Positions 1,775-61,611 of a DNA stretch of 64,000 nucleotides are shown here, in pieces. Numbering within the stretch: the first letter of the stretch is position 1; each line of letters begins with the position of its first letter. The translations under genes and the position numbers were made by a program. A model generated the notes under the pieces. The model had not been told where the DNA came from. It ran no database searches and saw nothing but the letters and a program-made list of their open reading frames with translations. The DNA is from Diphasiastrum complanatum (lineage: Eukaryota > Streptophyta > Lycopodiopsida > Lycopodiales > Lycopodiaceae): NCBI GenBank assembly GCA_029204225.1, contig CM055100.1, positions 49,397,083-49,461,082 on the forward strand. The letters are read 5' to 3'.

Positions 1775-2488
1775 ATCACCATCCAAAGTAGGATCCTTTT
1801 CATCAACATCAAGAATATTAGATCCATCCACACCACCATCAATCATGCTTGAAGACACTTTTGGAATATTCCCCTCATCAAAGATGACATCTCTACTAGC
1901 AATCACTTTGTTAGTAGAAGGAATGTAAACCTTGTAGGCTTTACTCACCTCACTATATCCAACAAAAATACCTCTTCTCGAAGATGGATCCTCCTTGGTC
2001 ATATCATCAAGGGTAATGTTGACATAGCATGTGCATCCAAAGGTTCTTAGAAAGTTGACACTCGTCCTCCTCCTGAATAGCATCTCAAAAGGTGTCCTTC
2101 CATCCAAAATAGCACTCGGCCACCTATTGCACAAGAAATTGGCACACAACAAAGCTTGATCCCAAAATGGTTTGTCAAGATTAGCACTTAACCTCATAGC
2201 TTTAGCACTTTCACATAAAGTCCTATTCTTCCTTTCAGCCAGTCCATTTTGTTGTGGGGTCCTTGATGTTGTATACTCCCTCTTGATCCCATTCTCATCA
2301 CAAAAGGCCTTGAACTTGGTAGATATGTACTCACCACCACTGCCACTCCTTAAGCACTTGATCCTTGTAAAAAATTGGTTCTCCCTTGCATTCTTGAACT
2401 TGATAAAGACAACATACACTTCATCCTTGCTCTTTAGTAGATAGATCCAACAAAATGTACTATAATCATCAATGAATGTTACAAACAT
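1772..2488 (-). pseudogene. Copia integrase core fragment
   Basis: 239-codon minus-strand fragment of a Copia polyprotein. It begins inside the rve integrase core ('FIDDYSTFCWIY', first Asp context 'GGEYISTKF'), continues with 'TSRTPQQNGLAERKNRTL' (the catalytic Glu region) and ends in the C-terminal 'FVGYSEVSKAYKVY' region. The reading frame is uninterrupted, but it stops at the junction with the neighbouring LTR at 1772-1774. The first element therefore probably jumped into this one. The N-terminal gag, protease and pre-integrase parts are absent: nothing recognisable lies between 2489 and 2640. Confidence 0.85.
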
Positions 2489-2612
2489 CTTAGCTCCATT
2501 ATTGCTAATTTTGTTGCTAATTTGAACTCTTGTGAGTCAATATGAAAAGGAAAATTCGAGACAATTTAAAGAACATGTCACCAACTATAGCTAGTTCAGA
2601 AGCCTTAATTAT

Positions 2613-2684
2613 CATGCATGGCATGAATTAATATTAACCCAGGTCACAGGTGGCTCTTCCATCTTTGAAAGAGCCTTATTTAAA
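2613..2684 (+). promoter_or_regulatory. RY element and TATA-like box upstream of the small seed-maturation-like gene
   Basis: CATGCATG at 2613-2620 is a perfect RY repeat, the target of ABI3/LEC2/FUS3-type B3 regulators of seed (or desiccation) genes. TATTTAAA at 2677-2684 can serve as a TATA box about 350 bp upstream of the ATG at 3036. Spacing and order fit a promoter; function is inferred from motifs only. Confidence 0.45.
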
Positions 2685-3035
2685 GACATTTGTAAGGTCA
2701 TGTATGAGCAACGGGGCTCATTCTAACACAGACACTTGGCTTTGGCAAAACATATACGAAAATTCCGGTACTGATCCAGTTCGTCCTCATCCTGATCTGA
2801 TCCTTATTACTACTATTCCAGTGCAACAACACGTAGAATTCAAGCACCAGGCGAGCAAGTTCTGTAACCGAGTTGCATGCGGGAATCTGAGATATCTCCT
2901 GGATCGCGATTGAAGTTCTAATTCTGCACTTTGTAAGTCATACAGCTTCTGACAGACTCTTTTGGTGTTCAAGTAGATTCATACCGTGTTTTTGTGACTG
3001 GATTGAACTGGGTTCGGAAGAATTTTTTGGTGGAT

Positions 3036-3281
3036 ATGTCTGGAGCTCAGGGTGCTCAACCGCCGGGCAGCCGGACTGCTACGACTTATGAGATGAAAAA
3101 GGATGCGACACATGAAAAATTAAAGGAGGTAGTATCTGCTGCTCAGGATTCTCCCAGTGTACCCGTGGACATGAAGGCTGACAAGGTGAAGGACGCCAGT
3201 GGCAAAGGAGGACCTGTGTTTGGCAACCCAAATCAAAATGCTGATTTAGGAGTCACCGGATCAGGAGGAGGAGGAGCGTGA
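3036..3281 (+). CDS. Small seed-maturation/LEA-like stress protein
   Basis: Intact 81-aa hydrophilic protein. It starts 'MSGAQGAQPPGSRTATTYE' and ends with a 'GKGGPVFG' block, a 'DLGVTGSG' block and a short Gly run. This start and end are the signature of a small plant protein family annotated as seed maturation or ABA/desiccation-induced proteins; the middle (lysine- and aspartate-rich) is variable. It has no signal peptide or membrane segment, so a cytosolic protective role is likely by family analogy. An upstream in-frame GTG at 2994 is not a credible eukaryotic start; the ATG at 3036 gives the conserved N-terminus exactly. It is uninterrupted by introns and lies in a transposon-poor gap of about 1.7 kb. 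The RY motif at 2613 fits maturation-stage expression. Confidence 0.75.
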   Translation: MSGAQGAQPPGSRTATTYEMKKDATHEKLKEVVSAAQDSPSVPVDMKADKVKDASGKGGPVFGNPNQNADLGVTGSGGGGA

Positions 3282-3289
3282 GTTTATCA

Positions 3290-4245
3290 ATAAGAGTCGT
3301 TGATCAAGGAGCTCTCTTTTAGATCAGCTCGCTGACTGATCAACTAAATGACTGTAGGAATCAATTGTCAGAACTCGATCATTAGGCTCTAACATGTTTT
3401 AAGTTTAGAGATTGGCATTTGAGAACTAGTTTCTGGAGTATGTGATCTGAAGTTTGTACATAAACTAAGCTTTTCACCTCCTCCTCTAAGGAAGATGATT
3501 ACATCCAGTTGTGTTCTCTAGAACTTGAAGACTTTTATATGGCAATATTTTGATTCTCTATAGTTGGACTCGTAGTTCATTTGTCTTTCATAAAAAAAGA
3601 TTTTTGAAATCAACATGGAAGGTATTTTTTTGTAGGAGTGTAAGTCAATTGATGATGCTTTGACACTTTTGTTTGGAGAGGCAAAAGTTTGACAAGTCCG
3701 ATATATACTTTTCATTGTAGCATCTTTGATGTACCATCTCTATGTTTACGAATCACCTCAATTACGTGTCTCATTAACTTCTGGATTAATTTATGTCTAG
3801 GCTACTTTTTTTAAAGGATTCAAACAAGCTGTTGAATTTTGTGAAAAAACTTGGGTGAAAAACATCTTTGCTTTAAAGTTTTGGGAAGAGATTTTTACAT
3901 CTGTTTTCTATATTCGAGAGCAAAGTTAACATATTACTAGCATGAAGCCCTTACAACTACCAAAAGAATATAGTTTTTGTTACCAAGCCCATTGAGAGCT
4001 TTTTCGTTGAGATTCTTTAAAATTTGGAAGTTCCCATGTGAGTTGAACTGCCCAATGTGAGTTGCATGCGTATGTGTACAAACCTAACACTGGGCAAGAG
4101 ATCCATGGGGCTAGTACTATAACCATTAAGGCCTACATTCAGCATAGGGGTCTATTAGTGATAAGGTTCTAAGTTAGGTACTAACAAACATACAGTAGTT
4201 AGGTGTCCTTGACATTCTTTATAAGAGGAGTGTACAATGGTTGGG
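3290..4245. other. Intergenic, no gene seen
   Basis: AT-rich sequence after the small gene, with no sustained reading frame on either strand. The first ~150 bp probably include its 3' UTR. Confidence 0.6.
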
Positions 4246-4249
4246 TGGA

Positions 4250-5220
4250 TTAGACTATGCTAGCCCTATTATGATTTCTTAGTGATGGATCGAAGCTGCA
4301 AATAGGCAGCTGTGGAGATAGCCTTGCCCAAAACTTCTTTGGAAGAGCAGCATGGGCCATCATGCTTTTGGCACTTTCAATAAGTGTCCGATTCTTCCTT
4401 TCTGCTACTCCATTGGACTGAGGGGAGTAGCTCGTGGTATATTGTTGATGTATTCCGTAGGCTTTGCAAAATTTCTTGAACTTGGTGGAGATGTATTCTC
4501 CCTCTCCATCAAAACATATTGCTTTGATTGTTCTCTGGGTCTGGTTCTCTGCAGATGCCTTGAACTACTTGAAGAATTTGAAAGTATCGGATTTATTCTT
4601 CATAAAGTAAGCGGCAGTCCTTCTTGAAAAATCAATAAAAGTTAGAAAATAAAATGTTCCCCCCTGTGGAAGAAGTCTGCATTCGGCCACAAAGGTCACT
4701 ATGTACAAGATCTAGCAAATCTCTAGAAGTGTGAACAGAATCTGAAGTAAATGGACTTCTAGCATGTTTGCTGATAATGTAGCTTGCACATGGAGACTCG
4801 GATTTGCTAATAGCAGGAAGATCTTGCACAATGTTCTGACTTGACATTTGCTAGGACAATTGCGGGATACTGTTAAAGTCTAAATGGCCTAGTCTGAAAT
4901 GCCACAACAAATGATTTGATTCAGAAGTAAAAATGAGTGCTTGACTATTAGTGGAATAACAATGACTAAGCTTATAAAGATAGTCACAAAGTCTATCAAA
5001 TGCCAAAAATTTTCGAGACTTGTCAAGAATAGTGCAATCCTCTGTATCAAACTCTACTTTACGATCTGAATCAGTGATTTTGCTTATGAAAAGCATATTC
5101 TTTGTAAGATTCGGAATATACAGAACATTGGACAACAACTTAACAACACCTCTTTGAAATTCGACCCTGACTGTCCCTTCACCTTCAATGGAATTAACAC
5201 TCTCATTCACGCAAAAGTAA
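4250..5220 (-). pseudogene. Copia protease/pre-integrase/integrase fragment
   Basis: Degraded minus-strand Copia pol piece. From right to left: end of protease and GAG pre-integrase domain at 4851-5210 ('VLYIPNLTKNMLFISK', 'HLLWHFRLGHL'); the start of integrase at 4632-4847 ('DLVHSDLCG'); then integrase core readable around 4270-4620 with 'TKFKKF', 'QYTTSYSPQ' and 'VAERKNRTL'-like words broken by stops. It ends near 4250. The 4266-4440 part resembles the integrase end at 60350-60490, so the two are copies of one family. Confidence 0.75.
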
Positions 5221-5521: not shown

Positions 5522-6736
5522 TGTCGGAAATAGGTTAGATAATCGTAGCGGAAACTTCCTACTTCCAGTGCATGACTACGCCTATCAAAAATTGAACAAA
5601 GCAGTAGGGATGGGAATCACGTTCAATCTTTAGCAACTAACTTTGAAATCGCTAGATACTAAGTGATTACATAGCTAAACATGAAGTATTGAATTTTTAG
5701 ACAATTTTATCAGTTACAAAGGAAATAAGAGATGCATGCATTCAGACATATACTAAACACAATAAAAGATAGGTATTGATTCAGAAAAACAAAATCAGAT
5801 GCTAATGTGCGCAAAACATTAGCGGATAGAAACCGCGCACTCTAAGTTGTCTCTGAGGAACTGAGGATAAGTATGATAATAAGTAGCTATGTTGATAAGC
5901 AATAGCACAATAGCAACTCTAAAATATAACTCTAGAAGACTAAGCTAGAATGTTCACGAGAGTTCAAGCTTGAAAGCTTGATAGAGAGCTAACTTGCAAT
6001 TCTTGCTGATATTAAACTGTTTACATTAAAACTGTATGAATATGATCAACTTTTAATACTAAGAAATTAGGTCGTCACTTGTGATTGCCAGTTGGCTGGT
6101 ATCCGCTGACATCCATCTTGTTTCTTGTCATTGATTGCTGATAAGCGATGAAATTGGCCGTAAACGTTCTGTCTGCATAAATGAACCAAACTGTTACTTC
6201 TGCAAAAATGAACTAAAACAGCCACAGGCGACACTGTTGCAAAAGGCGACAGTATTAGGATTTTGCGAAAAACGTGACAGTGCCTTAAAATCTGATTTAG
6301 GGTTGTCTACACTTTGCTAGAGTCATTTCCTTAACTTTTGAGGCTCTTTGGAGAAAGCAAAAAGTGCGACATTTTGTCAAGTGAAAAATGTGACTCTGCG
6401 TATTTGCTCGCAAATCCTGACAGGCCAAAAATGCGAAAAGCGACACTGCATTTTTAAACAAGATTCCTGACAAGTGATAGCGTTGCCAAAAAATGAAAAA
6501 TTGAAGCGACACTAAAGTAAAACTGCGTGTATTTTCTGACAGGTGAGAAAGCCGAAGTGAGAGAAAATGTGAAATGTGACACTGTGGTAAAACTTTGTGT
6601 AATTCTGCAGATTGTGTAAAAACACTTGTAAAACTGCAGATTGTAAAAGAACGGGGAAAAAACCGCAGAACCGGATAAACAACGGATGAAGATTAAAACT
6701 GATTAGTCAATTGATAAGAAGGAGAATAATCCAACA
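5522..6736 (-). repeat. 3' LTR of the large Copia element
   Basis: 1215-bp repeat, over 90% identical by eye to 25145-26358, in the same orientation. On the minus strand it starts TGTTGGATTATTC and ends CGACA, a typical Copia TG...CA pair. A polypurine tract abuts its inner edge at 6737. It contains many words of the type GCGAAAAATGCGAC, shared with the other Copia LTRs of the window. Confidence 0.9.
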
Positions 6737-8845: not shown

Positions 8846-10100
8846 AAGATACTCGGACAGAGCTACCCAAGAGCAACTCTCACCTTAGACCGAGGAGGTC
8901 TCTAAGAAGATGAGATGAACGAAGACTGACAGCCGAGAAATGCTAGTTAGGAATGACAAGCAAGAACTGTGTAAGCCTCATGGTGAATCCCGAAATATGG
9001 AATGACCATGTAGGAACTAGTATTTCTAGGCTAATGTAATAAATGCAAGTAGACCCCTCTTTAAGAAAGTAGAGTGAGCCACCTTTTGATGGTGACCTCT
9101 AGTGGAGAGTATTATTCCACTTGTAATATGTGTAATGTGGAAATGCCACTAGGATGCCACCTAAAGAGCTCTCTTGCTTATTTGAGAGACTCCCTCTTTG
9201 AGAAGAGGGGCTTTTTGTATATTGTATCAACTACATGCTGAAATGAGAAGAGCCTCCATGATTTAGGTGCATCCATTGAGCTCCTTGATCATGCTTGTTT
9301 CTTGAGTGAATGAATTCATGATCTTTCCCTTCCCTCTTTTGTGTGTGGTTGTGGATCGTAGAGTGGATTAGATTTCCTGCTTTTCTAGAGTGGCTTAGTT
9401 TTCATTTCTTGTTTGTGGATTCATGTAGGAATCAGCATTCAGGTAAACTAAATAGGCTAGAAATGTGGCATAAATCTTTCATATCCTCCAACATTCTAGT
9501 CCTTGATGTTCTTGGGATGTCCAAGAATAAAAAGACTGGTTGGTTTCTTGATTCTTGGACTTCTAAAATGCTGTAGATTAGTTTTTTGTTTAAGTTCTAT
9601 GGATTAATGCAGGTGTAGCTTAGTGTAGAATGTTTAGGATCTGATTTCAACTCGTTTTTAGACTAGGTAGTTGTAGAAATTGTTGAATGTTCATTTGGGC
9701 TGCATGCTGATCTGTAAATGAATGTTCATGACTTGCATCCCTACTTGAGTGTGAGTGCTTTCAAGAGAAAACGACCTTGAGTGTCCTCTGACAGACAGGA
9801 CATAAACTACAACGATAAACAGTCCGTTTATGCTTGGCCTGGGCGTTGCAACAAATAAGAAAACAGCCAATAAATGCCCAAACGAGCCTGGTAATAGGCA
9901 TAAACAGTTCTAAAACTAAGAAGAAACAAAGAACTAGTAAACAGATCCTCCCAAGCAAAGGATCAGTCAACAATTGACGTCGTTGCCGCTTGCACCACTC
10001 ACATTCTGAAATGCTACATGCTGCAACACTACCTTTGATCGGATCCATACAAGCAATTTGAAACATTTCTAGATCCGTTCATAGCTCAGAACGACCTACA
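8846..10100. other. Unassigned sequence at the left edge of the nested stack
   Basis: No credible gene. The DNA differs from the flanking Copia integrase and contains no repeat partner in this window. It may be an LTR or the 5' leader of the gag-like piece that follows, but I cannot show it. Confidence 0.35.
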
Positions 10101-26659: not shown

Positions 26660-28000
26660 AGTTGACTTTCATAGATGATTGGTCATTATTAATTCAAAAT
26701 TAAAAGCCAAAACATCAACATTTTGTATATCTAAATCGTCGACTTGGTTGAGTTTTTGGCAATCGCTTCTCTTGCCCTTCGGAACTATTTGCAACATTTC
26801 AAATTTATACCTTCCCAAAAAAGCATTCGCTAAAGTGGTGCACAACCAATGGACATATAGTACTTTCGTTTGGTTACTATTTTGAATGAATCCAAGCACT
26901 TTCACAATCCAATATGGATGTCCTTCACTATTTTCTGACTTCCAATTTGAATTTCATTCAGATCACTACACCACTTCATTTTGGCAGCTTTTATAGTTTG
27001 TGTATTATTTCTTGAGCCCACATAAATTTCACGTTCCTCGCCTTGGATAAGTTGCAAACAAATATTATGACGTGGAAGATTTGGAAGGTTCAAAATTTGC
27101 AGTCGAAGCTCCCAACTTAAAAGGCCAACAAAATTCTTCAGTTAATGATGCATCTTCGCGGTTGAGCAAATTGGTTTTTTGTTCCTTGAAAAAGTCCATG
27201 CACCAATGTCGATTAAATTCATCAAAAAATTGATAAGCTGCTTGAATGCTTGATTTCAAAAAATTTTATGAGGCAATTGGATCAACCTTACAATATTTTC
27301 TTTGCACCTTTTGTTCTTCTAGCATGGACTTGAAGGGAGACAATGCAGCAAGCTTGATTTCAGTAGAAGGCATATTGAGCATAAAACGAACTCCTTTAGG
27401 TGGTAGCCATGAACATTTGAAAACTGTTTGTCCCATAATGATGTAATGCTTTTTTTATTACATTTGATCTTAAATTCATGTCGAAAGCTAATGTCATCAA
27501 TAGTAGCAACACAACTCTCTGTTTCATTGGATGCCTTAATATAATCACGAAAATCATATGTGTGTTTGAGTAACGACACAACTGGCTTTGGCACATATGA
27601 TTCTTTGACAATACTTTGAAGCACTAGGAAAAAAAATGCCTTCTTGCGTCTCAGTCTCTTGGAAAAATAACTAAACATTTGATTAATTTGATCATGGATG
27701 TAGCTCACCAAAAAATCCTTTGTTTATTTTCTTGCCAAAAACATTCTCTACTAGCCTGGACAAGTATACTTGGATAGTTTAATATTATTTTCCCTAGTAA
27801 TGTTGTCAAGCTGCAAATAAACTATTTCCGAAAGATTTTCACCAAATTCGCAGATAACTTATGCACGATGGTGATTGTCAAATTTGGATCATTTGTAATG
27901 TTGGGATAATCAAAGATACATTGGACTCCAACATGCCATTAAACACAAGTGCTCCAACTAGATGAACTTCAATGAACTCTGCCTCATTCAAATTTTTTGG
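26660..28000 (-). pseudogene. Decayed unidentified gene
   Basis: A chain of minus-strand frames with protein-like composition that only makes sense read together: 27319-27711 ('YVPKPVVSLLKHTYDFRDY', 'ITSLWDKQFSNVHG'), 27065-27350 ('FKSMLEEQKVQRKYC', 'AAYQFFDEFNRHWCMDFFKE', 'WPFKLGASTANFEP') and 26669-27093. Frameshifts and stops separate them. I do not recognise the family; aromatic-rich strings and a missing start suggest an old host or transposase gene. Confidence 0.35.
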
Positions 28001-28017
28001 CACTCTAGTAAAATGAG

Positions 28018-28020
<3 letters not shown>

Positions 28021-28111
<91 letters not shown>
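28021..28111. repeat. (AC)n followed by (AT)n microsatellite
   Basis: About 27 AC units (28021-28074) run directly into about 18 AT units (28075-28111). Confidence 0.95.
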
Positions 28112-28113
<2 letters not shown>

Positions 28114-28139
28114 AGATCCATGCTGTCAATGACAAGGCC

Positions 28140-30850
28140 GGAATATTTCTGAGGATACTCTAGACATTTGTTTCATTGTTTGGCCAGCTTTCCATTGTTT
28201 GTTGATCTCTATGCACTTATAGGGCTTTTGCAGCATCCACTAAAAAATAGTTAAATTATTTAGTAGGAATACAATGATAGAATGACATTAAATATTTTGT
28301 AATTCAACATAACAATTTTGCCGTAAAATTTTTAGGTTTAACTAAATTTTTTTGAAATTATTTGTAAATGTGTTTTGATTTTTATAAATTATGTTTGAAA
28401 TTTTTAAAATACTAATGGTAAAATAAATAATATTTCATTTTTAGAAATGTTTAAAAATGTTAAATTTATATATATGAAAATGGTGTTTTCATTTTTTAGA
28501 AATGTTTTAAAATAATAAATTTATGTATTTGAAAATGATGAGTATTATCAAAATTGATTACGCTACAACTATTTTAATTCACTTTCTTGGAAAAAAATGA
28601 TGAATATCATCAAAGTTGATTACATTATAATCATTTCAATTTCTCACAAATCATATAATTTGATTGATTGAAAGCAATTTATTTTGCAATCGCTATTTGT
28701 TTTATTAGGTTTAAATATATTTGTTTAAAATAATATTTTAAACAAGTCAACATCAAATTTTTATTTATTTTAGTGGTTGTGTAATTAATGATTTTTTTGA
28801 TTGATTTATTTTAAAAATGTGCCGATTTGAAAATCTTAATAATAATTTGTATTTTTAAATTTTTTAGCCTGATTACATTTTTGACAAAATTAGATATTTT
28901 CTTAGTATTACAATATATTTTTGTAGAGCATTTTGAATATTGGTATTTAAAATTAAATAAAAAATGGGTCTTCATGTCATTTTTCCTTTTTTGTTCACCA
29001 TGTTGCACAATGTTTTCAATGAAATACTCTGAGGATTCAAAATTTTAGAAGGTGAAAAACTCTGCATTGGTGTTAAGAATCAAAACTATCTTTAAATAAT
29101 ATGGAGCGATGTATAAAGTAATAGTATCACCAAATGTAATGGAACAAATAGATATTTTGGATAACTATACAAGTAGGAGGGATGATTCAGAAGTAGATAA
29201 ACAAGGATATGGTTGCGTAACAATTTGTCAACCCCTGTGGAATTGGACATTTTTCAAGACAAAATTGTAGACCATCAACCTCTTCTTCAAAATTACAAGG
29301 GAATTAACTTGTATATTAAGGTTTTTTAAATAAACTACAGGCTTTTTCTACCAAGTTGAATATCTCACACATACATACTTAATATTACAATATCCTAAAT
29401 ACAAGAATTTAACACAAAGTACTTCAATTTTTGAAAAAAAAAAATGTAAGTAGGGGGAATGTCATGTGCAATAAAATTAGCATTAATGCAATAATGCCTT
29501 ATAAAGCTTAATAGAGCCCAAAATGTTACATTCCTTTAATGAATGACTGTCGATCTCTCTTTAGGTCTGTATAGGCTAATGAATGGCAAACTAACATTAA
29601 GTGGCATTTACAATATAATTATATTTAGTGAACTTTTAAATTTGTCTATAAGTAGACTAATCTCATAATTTTGGAGACCTTTGGAGACCTTTTGGTCTTG
29701 GCATCTAGCATTTATGCTTCCCTCTTCTTTAATGGTGTGGATACTCCATCTTAAAGCAAGAGAATGGATTTGGTTCTCCAAATTGATGTGTAATTGTGGT
29801 AATGCAATGTTATTTTGCTTCTCTTGCTTTCAATATGAATGTAATAAGCGGTTCTTGATTAGGCTCTTCAAAGTAGTTTTGACATTGCATTGAACTTCTA
29901 TTCCTAATCTCACTATCATTCACTACAAAGCAAGCTCCTTCAAGGTTTCCACTAGAGATGAGTCTAGAAAATCTAGTCATGTGCCCAGAACTCAATACCC
30001 TCATTTGCCTCTGGTCACTTTACCATTCCTTTCAGATTGAGATAAAATTCCCAATTTTTTATGAAGATAAGCTTTATGGATTCCTACCATATGGGCTGGA
30101 AAAAAAGTGCCTGGCATGTTAAGTGTCATGTTTATGACAATCAGAACAAACACAATGCAACAAATTGAGATACACCAAGTCCAGAAATCTCCTTCTCAAA
30201 ACAAAATCTTTACTATTTGATTACATTGTTATCATAGCATGTCAAGAGATGGTGGTGAACACAGTCTAGCAACTTCTGGCAAACATTGGTGAAGGTTAGA
30301 ATTTGGCAGAAAATATGGATAGCAGGCTACTTGGATAGCTAACATATAGCTGCTTTTGCTGAATGAGATAGAACTTCCTATAGAAAGAGCAAGAGCCAAT
30401 GAAGGTAAGCCATCCTTACAAAAATTCTGAACAATGTGACAGTTTCTAAGGATTTGCCTGAGCATTTAGCAGAAGGTATGTGTACATAGAGATCAAACTT
30501 TCCCCGGATGAAGGGCGCATTGTAAACTCATTTATATGCAGAACGACTGCCTCTGGTATCTTGCTTAAAAACTGCCAACCAATAAAAATTTGAAAGTGAG
30601 AAATGTGACTCTTTTCTTTCGGGCGATTTGCTGAAGAAGAGGTTTGCTCCTAATAAGCTCTGTAATTCACAAAACGTGGTAGAATCGAATGACACGATAC
30701 ATTGCATGCTTAAAGCCTCTCAAGGTGCTACATCACGGAAATTAAGCACAAGAGCTTACATGATTTGTATCTAGTGGGAAGGTATAACTCCTGTTTTGCG
30801 ATACAGAGTTTCTGTAGTTGAGCCCAGCTGCTGCTGGACGGAGATCATCT
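28140..30850. other. AT-rich intergenic region
   Basis: No gene, RNA or transposon is recognised in 2.7 kb of very AT-rich sequence (28.3-29.1 kb especially). The right end, from ~30500, probably includes the 3' UTR of the HAT/TPR gene. Confidence 0.6.
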
Positions 30851-54218: not shown

Positions 54219-54960
54219 TACCTAAGCTTTTGATGCATCTATCATCCATAGTTATAAAATCATCATGAAAATCAAGATCTAGAGTGTGTTGACTGCATCT
54301 CCCATGCTATCTTAGTGATTTTCGGACAATAGGGTTAATCATATGGATTGGACCAGATCTGGTACTGTACAAAAATAAGTGCTCAAACACATGTGAACGA
54401 CATCCAAATTCATTTGGTGGCTCTCTTCCAAGTTAGATCCAAATTTGGTGCTAGATAGCTTGCTTGAAATCTAGATTTGTCTACTTTTTGTGGCAATTTA
54501 ATTTAATCCATTTGGTGGAGCCTATAAAAAGTTATAATCTTTCGAAGAGGGTTAGGTAGGGCACCTAGACTTGTGTGGACACTTTGGTTTGACCCATATC
54601 TTGCTAGTTTGACCAAAAAATTCAAGAAGAGGCTTGCCAATTCCATCTATTTGAGATCTAGTCATCATTTTGAGGTCATAGCTTACAATTTCATTGTATA
54701 AGAATGATTTGTGGATTCTTTGAGTGTTTCACAAGTGCCAAAGATAGTTTGACCAAAACTTTGCCTATACTCCATCAATTAATGAGAGGTTGATCTAGTT
54801 GAGAGAGATTAGTAGAGCTAGTCAGATCCATCTCACATTTTGAGCTGACCATTAACAACCCTCGAAGGAATTTATTCCCTACATATTCTTCCACTCAAAA
54901 ATACCCATCTCAGTTGGTATGGGTTTTAATGTGTGTGGTGGCAACAAATTTTTTTTTTTT
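54219..54960. other. Possible decayed interior of the LTR element
   Basis: No gag or pol motif and no sustained frame. It ends in a T/A-rich run at ~54950-54965 that abuts the next gene. Confidence 0.4.
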
Positions 54961-54961
54961 T

Positions 54962-56882
54962 AAAAATTTTGAGGCTCCGTTAGTTGGTTGGCCCTTTATT
55001 TCAAAATTTTTCCATTTGTCAAAACTTTTATCTACAAGAGCCCACACTTGAAAAAATAACATTATAAAAACAAAATTTCATTTATTAATTTTAAAAACTT
55101 TTAAACCAAACATTGCATGTTAAGCATTGTAAATCAATTACCTGAAATAAATACTTTTAAAACAAACATTCTATGCTTAACATAGTAAAGTAATCACCTG
55201 GCCACTACGAAATGCAAGCTGATAAAAATTATCATATTTAATAAGGCTCTGCGTTGGATTTTTAGAATCAAATGGCAGGCCTATTTCTTGGGCACAAAGT
55301 GCTTTAAGCTCCAACTGGTTAAAATCTCCAACTTTGAAAACTCTGACAAATTCTTTGTAAAAAAATATGATCCTATGGATGATCATCATTTTCATCTTGT
55401 AGTCTTGGTCAATGTTATGGTTCCAGGCAAGAAGTTTAGTTTCTTCCATTGTCAACCTAGCAAAAGCAATGACACTAACAATTCGGAAATAAGGTACATG
55501 AGGGTACTCTTGGGACAATTGTTTTCTGGCTTGTAAACTATGAATGCCTTCCAAAACAAAAATGATAAGAACCTGAAGAAAAAAAATCAAATTTGAAAAC
55601 ATATCTACATTCAACCGGATCTACCAAAACAACAAAAGGTGTCACAATTACTTGCGTATGATCTTTAAATTTAATTTTTAAATTATGTACATGTGTGTCG
55701 TTAGGTCTTGAACCTCCATTGGTCGATCTCCAGTGGCTGGATCAATGGTAGATCGATCACACTAGTCTATATCCAGAATTAATGAAGTTTCTCTAATTTT
55801 TTTTGTTTTATGAATTTGATCGCTAATTTTAGAGATCTCAAATAAATCCTTCAACGGTTGGATAGTGGCTCCAGGAAAAACTAAAGTGGTCACTTCTGAC
55901 TTTTTTCTACTTTCTTCAGAAGGAACTACTTTTGGTCGCTTGGCCATGGATTTATTTTTGGACTTTGATTTTTCGGTTGCGGATTCAATATGTACAGCAG
56001 CCTTAGATCTCTTTTTTTTTGGGGAAAGGGGGCTGATTCGGAGGGTGCATACTTACCAGTAGCATCTATGTGGGATGGGACAATGGAAGAAGCTATATTG
56101 CCACGTGCCACTGCCACTGACTTTGTACTACGAGAAGAAAAGACTGGATCCTTTCTTAAACATTGTTTGAGGCTCTACATGAAAGAAAACAAAAGAATAA
56201 TGTTAGAGAACTTCGAGTATTCATAAAGTAATCTATGCTCAGCATAGATCGGATTTATTATAATACCAGATAATATAAAATCTAATCCATTGCAAATAAT
56301 ATAATTTATTCTTTTTAATGTGTTCATACCAATGTCACAAGAGCTTTGTCAAAATACACTTTAATGGCATCGTCTTTTCAAAGTCGAATCTTAAACATTC
56401 TCTCATCCAAAATGAATATCGAACGACTTTTGTCAAGTTCTTTCACAAGAACATTGACCAAGCTCTCTTGCTCCACATCATCATCGGACTGATCAGCAAG
56501 GACTCTACTTTGCACTTGAAATGGACATTCACCTCTTTTGCTCTTCTCAAATTAAGAGAATATCTTATGCTGAGCATACTTTAAGATTGAAGAGGTGTTA
56601 TGCTTAGCATAAGACATGGGAGCGAGGAACAAATGTTTCTATGCTGAGCATACCCAATAGTTGCAAAATAAAAAAGAAATTGTACATTTCTTTTAAGAAT
56701 ATGACGGCACAATACTATGATGAGCATAAAGAAAAACTTTTAAAGTTTAAAAAATTACAAATATTACCTAGACAAGAAGTGGATTGCTGATAGCTATGCG
56801 CAAGATTATAGAAGGTCATCGAATGAATGATTCTATCGTTCTGACGACAACCTTGAACACAAATTCGCAAATGAGGTGCCAT
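54962..56882 (-). pseudogene. Intron-containing ParB-fold-like gene, decayed
   Basis: Exon model (minus): 56768-56882 (ATG, 'MAPHLRICVQGC'), 56330-56532, 55761-56174, 55199-55572 and perhaps 54962-55046. The first two junctions match in phase. Exon 3 carries a basic nuclear-localisation-like tract ('KRSKAAVHIES', 'KSKSKNKSMAKRPK'). Exon 4 has 'VLEGIHSLQARKQLSQE' and, 30 residues later, 'LTMEETKLLAWNHNID'. That pairing of a G-x-H-x4-A motif with E-x2-LLA-x3-N resembles the ParB/sulfiredoxin-type nucleotide-binding fold. Damage: TGA in exon 2, a one-base shift in an A run and a TAG in exon 3. Fold assignment is from memory of motifs, so tentative. It faces the plus-strand gene at 57320. Confidence 0.45.
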
Positions 56883-57298
56883 GTCTTACTCTTGGGGTCC
56901 TTAAGTAAAAAAAATTTGACCTTCAAACTTTAATGGGCTCCCATTTTACTTCGCGACCAACTTTTTTCTTCACGATCAACTTGTTCAACCACCAACCATT
57001 AAAACAAACCCGTGTCAAGTATACCAACCCTAACCCTACTGTTAGAACGAAGACCTAACCCTAACCTTAACTTTTTAACATTTAGGCGTGATATTTTGTA
57101 GTTGGAAATTATCTTTGTTATTGTTGATTTTATGTTAAATGCACTCTTTGCGAATTTCAGTGTGTAGTTCTATTGATGTTGGCATAGTCTGTTTAACTCT
57201 TTCTATGACTAGTATTGCAAAATGTAACATTTTTGTTTGTTGGGTTATTTTTACGTTTATATTTTTATTTTTGTTTATGCTTGGCATAGGACTAAAGT
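55171..57298. promoter_or_regulatory. Dispersed palindrome family TATGCTnAGCATA
   Basis: Sites: 55171-55185 (CTATGCTTAACATAG), 56231-56249 (ATCTATGCTCAGCATAGAT, perfect around the centre), 56566-56578, 56598-56612 (TTATGCTTAGCATAA), 56640-56652, 56716-56728 (one mismatch), 57286-57298 (one mismatch). Four lie in intron 1 of the ParB-like gene, one in intron 2 and one in intron 4. The last is 22 bp in front of the ATG of the divergent gene. None falls in an exon. I noticed no further copy elsewhere in the window. Confidence 0.8.
57025..57069. promoter_or_regulatory. Telomere-like CCCTAA words between the divergent genes
   Basis: CCAACCCTAACCCTA at 57025-57039 and CCTAACCCTAACC at 57053-57065. 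Such telo-box words are known promoter elements in plants; here they sit between the two divergent starts. Confidence 0.5.
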
Positions 57299-57319: not shown

Positions 57320-58601
57320 ATGGCAAGTAGTTCTTCTTCTTCTATTCCTATAGTTGTAACTCAGTACGTAGCCACATCTGAGTCATCCTCCTCTGATATT
57401 CCTAATGAAAGTTACTATTATAAAGTCACTCCTTCAAGTTCTCATCCTAATACCCTTTGTGTTTTCCCATCAACAATAACATCTAAAATTTCTCATTTAA
57501 CTACTTTTCAGGAAATGACACCTTTAACACAACTTGTTACAAATTTGTGTTCTTCATCTTCAGATTCAGATATTAGAGAAACAACATTGCAAGATCATTT
57601 TGATGAATCAGAAGAGTTAGTTAGTGATGATTCATATGATTCAATTCACTCAGTCATGGATTCAAGTAAATCTACGGATCCCCGTCAATCAATTCATGTT
57701 CGACGTGTTCACATATTCGAAGAAAGTCCACTTCTCAAATCCAGAATCCAGTCAAATCCAAAGAGCTATATTTGTTGAGAATCTTTATTTTTCTGATACT
57801 GTTAAACCAATAGAGGCAAACCAACAACAACCTGATGTTCAAGCAGATAGTCCCACACCTTCTGGACCTATTCACACAACTACAGATGTCATGGGGTCAA
57901 TATACAAATATGATTTCAAAATAAAGGAAAGATATAAGAGAAACTTGAAATCTTCACCTATTTTGACAAAACGTCAAAAACAATTGATTACAAGAGAAGA
58001 GATTCGAAAGGTACAATGCATTATTTGTTGTTCATCTTATTGCTTAAAGAAATTAAACAACAAAGAGATCAAAGAGTTGAGATCCAATTCTTTTTTTGCG
58101 AAATAAAGATGAAAAGAATTACTATTTGTGTGCCACAGTGAGACCCAACAAAAACTCGTATACATATTTTTTAAATACAACGGAGGTTTGTCGAAAAGCC
58201 TACAAACTTGTTCATGCAATTAGAAATTCACGCCTTCAAAGAATGCACGCACGACTTCAAAAAGATCCAACATTGTGAGGAACACTGTAGGGTAGAACTG
58301 TGCCGGATGCTTTGAATGCTACGGTTGGCTAAAACATTTTGTAGATGTGCATGGAGAAAAATTATCAAATTCATTATATTTTCACCTGCCAGATAATTTT
58401 ACAAAATTGGAGATATTTTTTATGTACAAGGCGTTCGCGAAGACAAAAAATGTTGCCTATTTAAGTTACTCGTATTTTTTTAGGATTTGGAAGAGAGATT
58501 TTGGTTTGGTGAAGATTCCAAAAAAATCACGAATGACAGTTTGTTCGACATGCAAGTTGTTAAAGTCTGCCAAACAACTAGCAAAGACCAATGATGAGAA
58601 A
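57320..58601 (+). pseudogene. Gene fragment resembling the N-terminal part of DUF7869 transposase-like proteins
   Basis: The ATG at 57320 opens a Ser-rich, acidic 150-residue start. After a frame change near 57765 comes a basic, cysteine-containing region: 'VQCIICCSSYCLKKLNNKEI', 'FLNTTEVCRKAYKLVHAI', 'GWLKHFVDVHGEKLSNSLY', 'HLPDNFTKLEIFFMYKAF', 'YFFRIWKRDFGLVKIPKK' and 'VCSTCKLLKSAK'. This order of motifs is what I recall from proteins of animals, algae and early plants that continue into a DUF7869 (transposase-like) domain. A GTAACA donor at 58601 follows; the next exon is lost where a Copia element begins (~58740). Frameshifts at T- and other runs (57765, ~58095, ~58320) and stops show it is dead. 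Confidence 0.4.
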
Positions 58602-58739
58602 GGTAACAATTAATTAACTTTCAGTACTTTAAAAACTTTATTTTTTTTGTTGATTTTTTAGTTTTCAAATTATTAATGTTATGATATTAAAAAGTAATAG
58701 CATGTGTTTGATGTCCATCGCTGGACAGTAAGCCATTGA

Positions 58740-60495
58740 TTCCTTGGTTAGCATTCGTGGCAGCTATGTATTTTGATTCGGTCGATGATAATGCTACTGA
58801 GGTCTACTTTCAGATGTTCCAAGATATTGGGCCTTGATTGTATAAAAATACAAATCCAGAAGTCGATCTTCTGGTGTCGATATCTCCTGCCCAATCTGCA
58901 TTTGTGTATCCTTAAAAAATATGGGTAGATTGGCTACCTCCATAACAGATGCTAATATGTTTGGTTGCTTAGATATACTTCATGGCCTTCATGAGAGCTT
59001 TCCAATGAGTTGGCCCTGGACGGCGATAGGAATTGGCTGAGAGAGCTGATGGAGTATGCCAAGTTGGGTTGAGTGTAGAGCATAGCATACATGAGTGACC
59101 CGATGATGGAGTGAAACATATATTGTTTTATTTCATCCTTCTCTGCCTCGGATCGTGGACACTGCTCCTTTGACAGCTTCAGACCAATCAGGTTGAGTGG
59201 GTAGCTCAATTTGCAATTGTTCATTCCATATTTTTTCAGCACATTAGTGAGATATCGTTGTTGATTGATGAAAATCTATTTGTTGGGTCGATCTCGATAG
59301 ATCTGGATTCTGCTACAATAGTGGGCTGGACCCATATCAATCATTTTGTACTCTTGTGCTAGCATGCATTTTGTATCCTTCAATAAACTCAAATTTTTAC
59401 TAAATAGTAACGTATCATCGACATAAAGAGCGATGATAATGAAGGAACTAAAAACAGACTTGAAATAAACATTTGAGTCTACCAAGTTTGGAATAAAACC
59501 ATTCTCGATTAGAAATACGTTGATCTTTTGAAACCAGGCTCTTGGTGATTGTTTCAAACTATAGAGAGCCTTGTGAATTTTGCACACTAGGTGCTTCTTA
59601 CCCTTCAACTTGTATCCCTCTAGTTGCGACATATAGATTTTCTCTTCTATAGTCTCGTTGAGAAAGGCAGTTTGGACATCTATTTGATGGACTTCAAGAT
59701 CTGCTGCAACTGCATAGGAGAGTAGAAGTCGAATCGAAGTATGCTTGATGATAGGATTGAAGGTCTCTGAATAATCCAGATCTGGAATCTGGGAGAAGCC
59801 TTTGGCGACAAGCTTTACCTTGTATCGATTTAATCTACCTTCAACATCATACTCCACTTTGAATATCTTGCATTGAATCGGGTTTTGATCCTTTGGCAGA
59901 TCAGTGACAGTCCGTGTTTGATTCTCAATAAGAGAATCGAATTCAGTGTCCATTGCAGCTTTCCACTGGTCAACATCAGGTTCCACTTGTCGAGGTTCAG
60001 ACTCATTGTTGGAGTCGGTGCCGAGCTTGTGATCAGTTTCAAGTTCGAAGTTGTCTACTCTGGAATTTGAAGTCGATGGAGCTTTTCTCTTGTGGTCGAA
60101 GAATTTGTCTTCCACAAAAATGACATCTCTACTGGTGAATGATTATTGACTGTCCAAGTTGTAGAGCTTGTATGCCTTGTGATCTCGAGAATAGCCGATG
60201 AAGATTGATTTTCTGTTGGTGTTGTCCAGCTTCTTTCTTAGATCTTCGGGGATCTGAGAGTAAGCTATGCATCCAAACACTCGAATATGCTTGAGTGATG
60301 GCTTTGATCCTATCCACACCTCATAAGGTGTTTTGCCATTCATGGCCTTAGTGATGGATCGATTTTGTAGATAGGCAGCTATAGTAATAGCTTCTGCCCA
60401 AAATTTCTTTGGAAGAGAAGCATGGGCTGGCATGCTCTTGGCACTTTCGATGAGTGTCTGATTCTTCCTCTCAGTTATACCATTGGACTGAGGTG
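58740..60495 (-). pseudogene. Copia pol: integrase end, reverse transcriptase, RNase H start
   Basis: Best preserved reverse transcriptase of the window: 59276-60115 is open for 279 aa with 'DVDQWKAAMDTEFDSLIENQ', 'DVQTAFLNETIEEKIYM', 'HKALYSLKQSPRAWFQKI' and 'ALYVDDTLLF' (YVDD). Integrase C-terminal part at 60129-60490 ('FWAEAITIAAYLQNRSITKA', 'VWIGSKPSLKHIRVFGC'). RNase H begins at ~59170 ('FHSIIGSLMYAMLYTQPNLA') and breaks off near 58740. The right edge at 60495 is cut by the LTR starting at 60503. Confidence 0.85.
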
Positions 60496-60502
60496 AGTAG
60501 TG

Positions 60503-61611
60503 TTGGAAATTAAGCCCATAGTTGCATCCTTGGAATCATAACTTAGACAACCAATTTATTTGAAGGACGTCTACAATGGACTTTCGGCTGATCTCCAACA
60601 AAGGGTAACCAACCCCATCATAATTTCAAGTTTAGATGTGAAGTTTACTAGCTTGAAGTCATTGAAGACTTGGCCATCTTCATGGACTTCCACAAACTTG
60701 CATTTGGAACAAGTCTGTAGATTTACATTACTTTTTGAATAGTATGTAGAAATATACTAAGTGTCACAGTTCACATTTTTTGCACTTTTCAAAAACTGCA
60801 ACACTTACCTTCGACTTCTTTTGTTCAATTATTTTTTTGAAGAAGTCAACTTGTTTACAGTTCAACAGTTTAATTTTTCAATAGCTTCACCTTTTTTCGC
60901 ATTTTCTTGAAAAATGCAAAGAGAGAGAAAATTACAGAAGGTCCTCTATTTTTAGGGGTTAAACTGTTAAAGACACCTTTGCCAACTTTTTGAGGGCAGC
61001 TTAAACTTGTTTTAAGAGCACCTTCGGTTCTTTCATTTTTTTTGAAAAGTGTGAGAAAGTTGAACTGCTAAGTCTATCTTCGCCTTTTGAGGGCACCTTC
61101 AACTTTCTAAGGGCACCTTAAAACTTGTTTAAAGGCACCTTCGACTTTTTTGCAAAAACCCAAAAGGAGAGAAAATGCTGAAGGTTGTCTGTTTTGAACG
61201 AGGAACGTTCCCAGCCACTTCCTAAAATTTGCGACGTTCTTGTCCGCATCAACGATCCTAACATGTTGGTCGTATATATACTATGTATAGTTGTCACAAA
61301 AGACATATACTTCCAAGTACAACGGCTTTCTTGATTAGGTGACAAACATTCAATGTAATTAATACACAGATGAAATCTAGAAATAGATCATCCAAGCACA
61401 GATTACAAGTTGCTCCATCCATGAGTTGTATTATTTGAGCCTCCCAATTACGTCGTCAATTTTTGGTTGTAATTGCTATTTGTATTATGCTTTAGTGTAA
61501 TATAGTAGTAGCAGCTTTTCTATCTGTGTATAATGTAGATGAATGCTTGTTGTGATTGAATAAACTTTATCGATGTTTGATCGTGCTTGTTTACTCACTC
61601 TGATCAGAACA
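60503..61611 (+). repeat. Copia-type LTR, plus orientation
   Basis: Begins TGTTGGAAATTAAGC directly after the broken integrase and ends near CAGAACA at 61611. It is related to the LTR at 49342-50173 read in the opposite direction, including the end words TCTGTGTATAATGTAGATG and CTCTGATCAGA. Neither a primer site nor a polypurine tract adjoins it, so it may be a solo LTR. Confidence 0.6.

Follow-up and report, generated by a model that had tools for sequence, protein, structure and literature searches.

The window, that is, the whole stretch of 64,000 nucleotides of Diphasiastrum complanatum DNA that was analyzed, contains a pair of divergent genes belonging to a broken transposon copy. The part homologous to other copies extends from about position 54861 to about position 58689. 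The accessory gene is on the minus strand and consists of the 3′ part of exon 1 (56381-56551), a remnant of a lysine- and serine-rich exon 2 in two frames (55765-56174), a ParB-like part in two frames (55198-55741) and, downstream of the latter, an exon remnant at 54882-55077, which was detected as two ORF pieces with an HMM of the family itself (E=1.8e-15 and 1.6e-10). The 5′ part of exon 1 is unaligned, and the copy aligns as though this part had been deleted. On the plus strand, the exon 1 region of the transposase gene (57320-57778) encodes a serine-rich N-terminus, and its open frame reaches the stop at the end of this interval. Further transposase coding pieces (58081-58610, plus strand) encode sequence on the N-terminal side of the catalytic region, and no DUF7869 part was detected among them. 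Minus-strand Copia-like ORFs start within about 270 bp of the right edge of the copy. These Copia-type retrotransposon ORFs occupy 58952-60535, shortly past the end of the transposase homology, and the insertion probably truncated the window copy. In addition, the window holds a deleted second copy of the family on the minus strand at 26905-29004, with a left-type terminus (28966-29004) and DUF7869-type transposase pieces. In this second copy, neither the palindrome described below, at up to two mismatches, nor any accessory-gene match was detected.

A motif scan of the window detected four exact copies of TATGCTNAGCATA and three copies with one mismatch, all at 55172-57288 (no strand assigned). 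The exact copies start at 56234, 56566, 56599 and 56640, and the one-mismatch copies at 55172, 56716 and 57276. No further site with zero or one mismatch was found elsewhere in the 64 kb, as the preliminary description had stated for its seven palindromes within 2.1 kb. Four additional matches outside the cluster have two mismatches each. The resulting total of 11 sites at up to two mismatches compares with 3.5 expected, and the largest count in 100 shuffles was 10. Palindrome 1 (55172-55184, TATGCTTAACATA, one mismatch) lies in the intron that follows the ParB-like exon, and a homologous site is present in copies A and B (position 4437 of locus L001, which is copy A). At 55092-55200, a 53-bp direct duplication (79%) spans the exon end and palindrome 1, and the palindrome position in its other half is degraded. 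Palindrome 2 (56234-56246, exact, centre C) lies in the intron separating exons 1 and 2 of the accessory gene, inside ATCTATGCTCAGCATAGAT, which reads as a perfect 19-bp palindrome at 56231-56249, as had been described. It is shared with copies A and B, with a core conservation of 12/12 against 0.73-0.74 in the flank.

Palindromes 3 (56566-56578), 4 (56599-56611) and 5 (56640-56652, 41 bp from palindrome 4) are exact, and palindrome 6 (56716-56728, TATGATGAGCATA) has one mismatch. These four had been assigned to intron 1. However, the arrays of the fuller copies L001, L002 and L062 sit upstream of accessory exon 1. Thus, the four sites at 56566-56716 probably form an array in the divergent promoter, outside any intron. 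Palindrome 7 (57276-57288, TATGCTTGGCATA, one mismatch) lies in the transposase leader, at a position conserved in other copies; 31 bp, and not the 22 bp first given, separate it from the ATG at 57320. A degenerate dyad further upstream in this leader (57204-57216, TATGACTAGTATT) stands opposite TATGACCAGCATA of other copies in the leader alignment. Telomere-like ACCCTAA repeats were also observed at 57027-57065 (plus strand), between the array and the transposase gene. Other copies carry them as well: they are found likewise in the promoter between array and transposase at 7047-7096 of L001 and at 5359-5389 of L062. At least one match was present in 21 of the 27 sources scanned whole, and none in L005, L023, L030, L031, L033 and L035. 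We take these repeats to resemble the telo-box promoter elements of plants.

Genome-wide, 6330 exact TATGCTNAGCATA sites were counted in 1.74 Gb. In the same genome, the reversed motif was found 13 times, a second palindrome of the same composition 70 times and its reverse 540 times, so that the motif outnumbers these controls by factors of about 490, 90 and 12. The second palindrome was added because the reversed-motif control contains CpG and flatters the enrichment. Pairs of sites 29-59 bp apart numbered 1786 for TATGCTNAGCATA and 0 for the reversed pattern. Some small contigs duplicate chromosome stretches, and these genome-wide counts may be inflated to that extent. The palindrome is a genome-wide, clustered feature. 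It is far denser than the control patterns, and further copies of the pair that were read carry it as well, so that neither refuting check of the preliminary description goes against it.

The palindromes belong to a high-copy DNA transposon with inverted ends, target duplications and two divergent genes. Twelve loci of 8-10 kb were fetched, centred on site clusters in the early part of contig C1, and nine of them match the genes of the window pair; in the remaining three (L004, L006 and L011) no element gene was found. The element is about 9 kb long, with inverted ends of about 13 bp (AACAYGRTGAC...) that match one another and 4-bp target duplications. The left terminus, AACATGRTGAC..., was found at six copies and gave 110 + 87 pattern matches; the right terminus, AACAYGATGACATTTG... 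read inwards, gave 131 + 131. Among ten correctly oriented end pairs chosen from the two terminus lists, eight have a perfect 4-bp duplication (ATAG, GACA, CCTT, ATAT, TATA, TGTC, TATA and GATA, mostly, not all, AT-rich), two of these eight looking like one duplicated insertion. The two pairs without a duplication are L062 and L063. In L062 both ends are present, about 9.0 kb apart, and its own flanks mismatch. By eye, copies B and D have TATT on either side.

The transposase matches DUF7869 (PF25273, E=9.6e-49), and its GMDQ, LDN and GHTHDQID blocks look like the catalytic set of a DDE-type enzyme. No paper on DUF7869 turned up in the literature search. A first look gave 2543 candidates for the transposase query exon and 1817 for the ParB-like part, of which 150 each were scored. 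In these scored lists, both genes were seen by eye, divergent and about 2.6-3.5 kb apart, at at least 13 places including the window, some of which may be duplicate contigs; at C1:36.03M both genes are on one strand. In L001, an ORF at 8915-9538 sits where the transposase gene should continue; we take it to be a Pif1-type helicase, probably of a Helitron. A search for viral relatives, made with the ParB-like part and with the transposase, confirmed none.

Within the element, the sites lie in non-coding DNA. In the twelve cluster loci, 0 of 106 sites with zero or one mismatch fall inside 14,195 bases of coding matches. L001 has 19 sites, of which 12 form a promoter array (6222-6701), one lies in the transposase leader and six lie in accessory-gene introns. 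L062 has an array of 11 sites between the genes, one leader site and one intron site. For the leader, 22 loci were entered, four of which gave no start match. Of the 18 remaining rows, several of which are near-identical copies, 16 have a dyad 25-34 bp ahead of the transposase start; in the other two, which lack a site, the start is unaligned. In a leader alignment of 13 rows, to which the window was added and from which 6 of the 18 rows were omitted as near-duplicates or for an unaligned start, conservation is highest, among all 13-column windows, at this dyad (0.97, against 0.72 and 0.68 on its two sides), and it exceeds that of the coding columns. For intron and leader dyads together, 14 of 17 pairwise rows retain 10-12 of the 12 core bases, with flanks at 0.46-0.90; in L012, for example, a core retains 11/12 with flanks of 0.46 and 0.55. 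Site 3096 is absent in copy D and in L012, and site 4437 is degenerate (9/12) in L012. In three close pairs, with copy B at 3770, 3820 and 4437, the core is conserved about equally to the flank. Thus, most of the dyads are better conserved than their surroundings.

The arrays differ from copy to copy in number and spacers, and some spacers are reverse complements of one another, as would be expected of a functionless tandem repeat or a MITE-like parasite spreading inside the element. We regard this as the least probable account of the sites, since the spacers of L001-L003 are little alike (0.35-0.40 in direct comparison, 0.32-0.33 when shuffled) and yet the dyad is kept, and since the isolated dyads of leader and introns are mostly more conserved than their flanks. 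In L004, two spacers only gave 0.59 against 0.36 shuffled. Among the first 50 listed pairs of the 29-59 bp range that was searched, 32 have a spacing of 40-43 bp and 11 one of 52-55 bp; in L004 and L006, a 28-bp spacing is frequent. Helical phasing with a period of 10.5 bp was considered and rejected, because this was not the best period (R 0.65, compared with 0.79 at 13 bp), and only preferred spacing classes are left. In L001 and L002 the whole array is an inverted repeat (6198-6631, 436 bp at 97%, and 3280-3796, 517 bp at 81%, respectively). Self-complementarity is shorter or weaker in the arrays of L003, L062, L008, L005 and L010, and the window array contains no long inverted repeat. The inverted-repeat arrays hint at growth by inverted duplication.

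The site itself is an odd dyad, 13-19 bp long, whose centre base is free. Among 68 exact sites, A makes up.24, C.26, G.26 and T.24 of the centre bases; only C or T occurs at position -7, G or A predominates at position +7, and positions ±8 lean to C/G. The preliminary description had also proposed RNA hairpins acting in introns. Hairpins, or a long hairpin transcript of the arrays, could give rise to small RNAs or control splicing, and the inverted-repeat arrays of L001 and L002 and the intron location of some sites are in line with this. However, changes that restore base pairing were found in 0 of 18 two-mismatch sites near exact sites, and the pair-preserving double change TATGTTNAACATA gave 364 matches, below its reversed control of 609. 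Furthermore, solitary dyads occur in the leader and introns, and the window array has no long inverted repeat. Since the sequence is kept and pairing changes are not enriched, these results suggest recognition as DNA by a symmetric protein, and a role of the dyads in RNA pairing is very unlikely.

The one-mismatch sites show a particular pattern of decay. Among 47 one-mismatch neighbours, most changes are C-to-T at position -2 (centre G in 10/11) or G-to-A at position +2 (centre C in 15/17). Single changes of these two kinds were found at 1718 + 1777 sites genome-wide, compared with 60 and 71 for the reversed pattern; counted by eye, the centre is other than G in 23 of about 100 listed rows. 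These changes fall in the CHG context, so that the copies probably underwent methylation of the plant type and decayed. The CHG-context decay, the introns, the Copia-type ORFs and an ORF in L004 that resembles a carotenoid dioxygenase together point to a plant host. This ORF (1866-3957), presumably carotenoid-cleavage-dioxygenase-like, lies upstream of the L004 array.

The same decay bears on the idea that the dyads bind a host factor, such as a transcription factor, an insulator or a silencing factor, which the element exploits or which is used against it. The decay suggests host methylation at the sites, the promoter and leader placement would suit such a factor, and 3 of the 12 cluster loci lack an element gene. 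Dense arrays rich in 28-bp spacing are found at 4857-5345 of L004 and at 4315-5132 of L006, the latter within tandem units of about 190 bp, and no element gene was found at either locus. L004, L006 and L011, two of them with dense arrays, speak against a strict tie of the array to the genes. On the other hand, a 13-bp motif at about 490, 90 and 12 times its controls occurs so far mainly with this transposon (9/12 loci), and we consider binding by a host factor unlikely.

Among the products of the element, the accessory protein is encoded divergently from the transposase and carries a C-terminal N6/N4 DNA-methyltransferase domain. The exon with motif I matches the C-terminal part of PF01555 (E=1.7e-11 and 4.3e-9; 44.9 and 37.1 bits, with a cut-off of 26.7), and the exon with motif IV gave no Pfam match. 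Weak PDB matches of the methyltransferase part were to RsrI, DpnA, MboIIA and CcrM (E 1e-4 to 0.025). In the downstream exons the motif IV region precedes the motif I region, which is the order of beta-class methyltransferases. The canonical motif IV is (D/N/S)PP(Y/F/W), for example DPPY; the copies read, which are broken and decayed, have NIPY, NIPH or DILY instead. Thus, methyltransferase activity of the protein is uncertain.

The ParB-fold label of the preliminary description fared less well, and every profile comparison came out without a match. PF02195 (ParB_N) gave 0 matches genome-wide at E<=10, the ParB-like part has no ParB match in Pfam, PDB profiles, PHROGs or NCBIfam, and hhalign against one ParB, N15 SopB, returned a probability of 0.2%. 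The part shows GxHS, at a position where the ParB motif has Arg. The label, which draws on resemblance and on the published parallel in Ectocarpus, is unproven. Phage methyltransferases were matched weakly by the methyltransferase part (167 records with a match), and phage fusions of a ParB fold with an N6_N4 methyltransferase exist according to the available text of PMC12704722. A relative among such fusions was rejected in the three regions opened of the 167, where the matching gene or ORF measures 717-741 bp, too little for an additional ParB part.

Transposon proteins can bind repeated internal motifs. The dyads might thus bind the transposase of the element, in the manner of the TnpA sites of Spm, for promoter repression or end assembly. 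The preliminary description had mentioned transposase-binding sites, and this alternative is a live one, though less probable than binding by the accessory protein. It agrees with the dyad 25-34 bp before the transposase start in 16/18 rows, and it would account for the promoter sites too. Against it, the sites are concentrated in the middle of the element and in the introns of the accessory gene, and none comes closer to the left end than 1.5 kb (in L001) or 2.1 kb (in L062). Moreover, two short copies of 1.5 and 2.8 kb with both termini (L063 and L064) carry no dyads, and the 2.8-kb copy has a perfect 4-bp duplication. If these copies moved in their short form, they lean against a need for the dyads in transposition. 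For Spm, TnpA activates and demethylates the element (work cited in PMC10398659, as far as its available text goes).

We favour the reading that the dyads are cis recognition sites of a Sola-like transposon, bound by its own ParB-like/methyltransferase accessory protein, and give it a probability of roughly 0.5. The accessory protein is favoured because the sites are scattered through the introns of its gene and through the promoter common to both genes, a long way from the left end, an arrangement like that of VANC21/VANDAL21. According to this reading, a protein encoded by the element, most likely the accessory protein, would bind the dyads as DNA. The protein would find copies of the element by means of the dyads, a form of self-recognition, and would modify or open these copies against host silencing. 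It may also autoregulate the transposase. The CHG-context decay suggests that any protection has failed for the copies concerned. The operator part of the earlier operator/parS proposal agrees with the odd dyad, the promoter and leader placement and a motif conserved mostly above its flanks. In a more specific version, which we hold to be rather doubtful, a ParB-like module would load at parS-like arrays, and the fused bacterial-type methyltransferase would mark the DNA of the element alone (6mA or 4mC), which would thereby escape silencing by host CHG methylation and RdDM. If so, the dyad would supply the cis component so far missing from the ParB-methyltransferase accessory systems of algae.

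Bacterial ParB-parS shares with the present element the clustered palindromic sites near a ParB-looking gene. It differs in that the element protein has no ParB profile match, and we take the TATGCTNAGCATA dyad to be unrelated in sequence to parS. VANDAL elements are Mutator-type elements with a 9-bp TSD, whereas the D. complanatum element has a DUF7869 transposase, a 4-bp TSD and an accessory protein that bears a methyltransferase domain. In its ends and duplications the element resembles Sola2, with 12-13-bp inverted ends and AT-rich 4-bp duplications (available text of PMC3627910). It is Sola-like by these two features, and its transposase match itself is DUF7869.

The closest parallel in the placement of the motif is VANDAL21 of Arabidopsis. 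In the available parts of PMC5735166 and PMC10398659, VANDAL21/VANC21 shares with the present element an accessory gene, a short motif in non-coding DNA including introns and the upstream region, fast-changing arrays and a high motif density particular to the family. The sites that VANC21 binds are found in introns and upstream regions (PMC5735166), the same non-coding parts of VANDAL21 at which RdDM is directed (PMC10398659). As described there, the VANC motif is 9 bp long (YAGTATTAY) and has a single orientation, whereas the D. complanatum site is an odd dyad of 13-19 bp. Anti-silencing has been shown for VANDAL21, whereas for the present element we infer it.

The closest parallel in the accessory gene is Sola1-1_Ec32 of Ectocarpus (available text of PMC12477816), in which this gene is on the strand opposite to the transposase and encodes a ParB-like part and an N6A/N4C DNA methyltransferase in one protein. 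ParB-like-methyltransferase accessory genes are thus already known in algal transposons, and the same paper suggests that their proteins bind and modify the element that encodes them. Sola1-1_Ec32 is 21.5 kb long compared with 9 kb here, where the host genome also has plant-like features, and the available text mentions no repeated palindrome for it; a palindrome array of this kind was not found in the published literature searched. That text names no target site for the algal proteins, and the D. complanatum element offers a candidate: one dyad in thousands of copies, arranged in arrays with preferred spacings and present, at a fixed place ahead of the transposase, as an operator-like site. 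Such a concrete dyad makes binding and modification directly testable. If the favoured reading is true, a system unrelated to VANC would have evolved the same private address code for anti-silencing, using a DNA-modifying enzyme of bacterial type.
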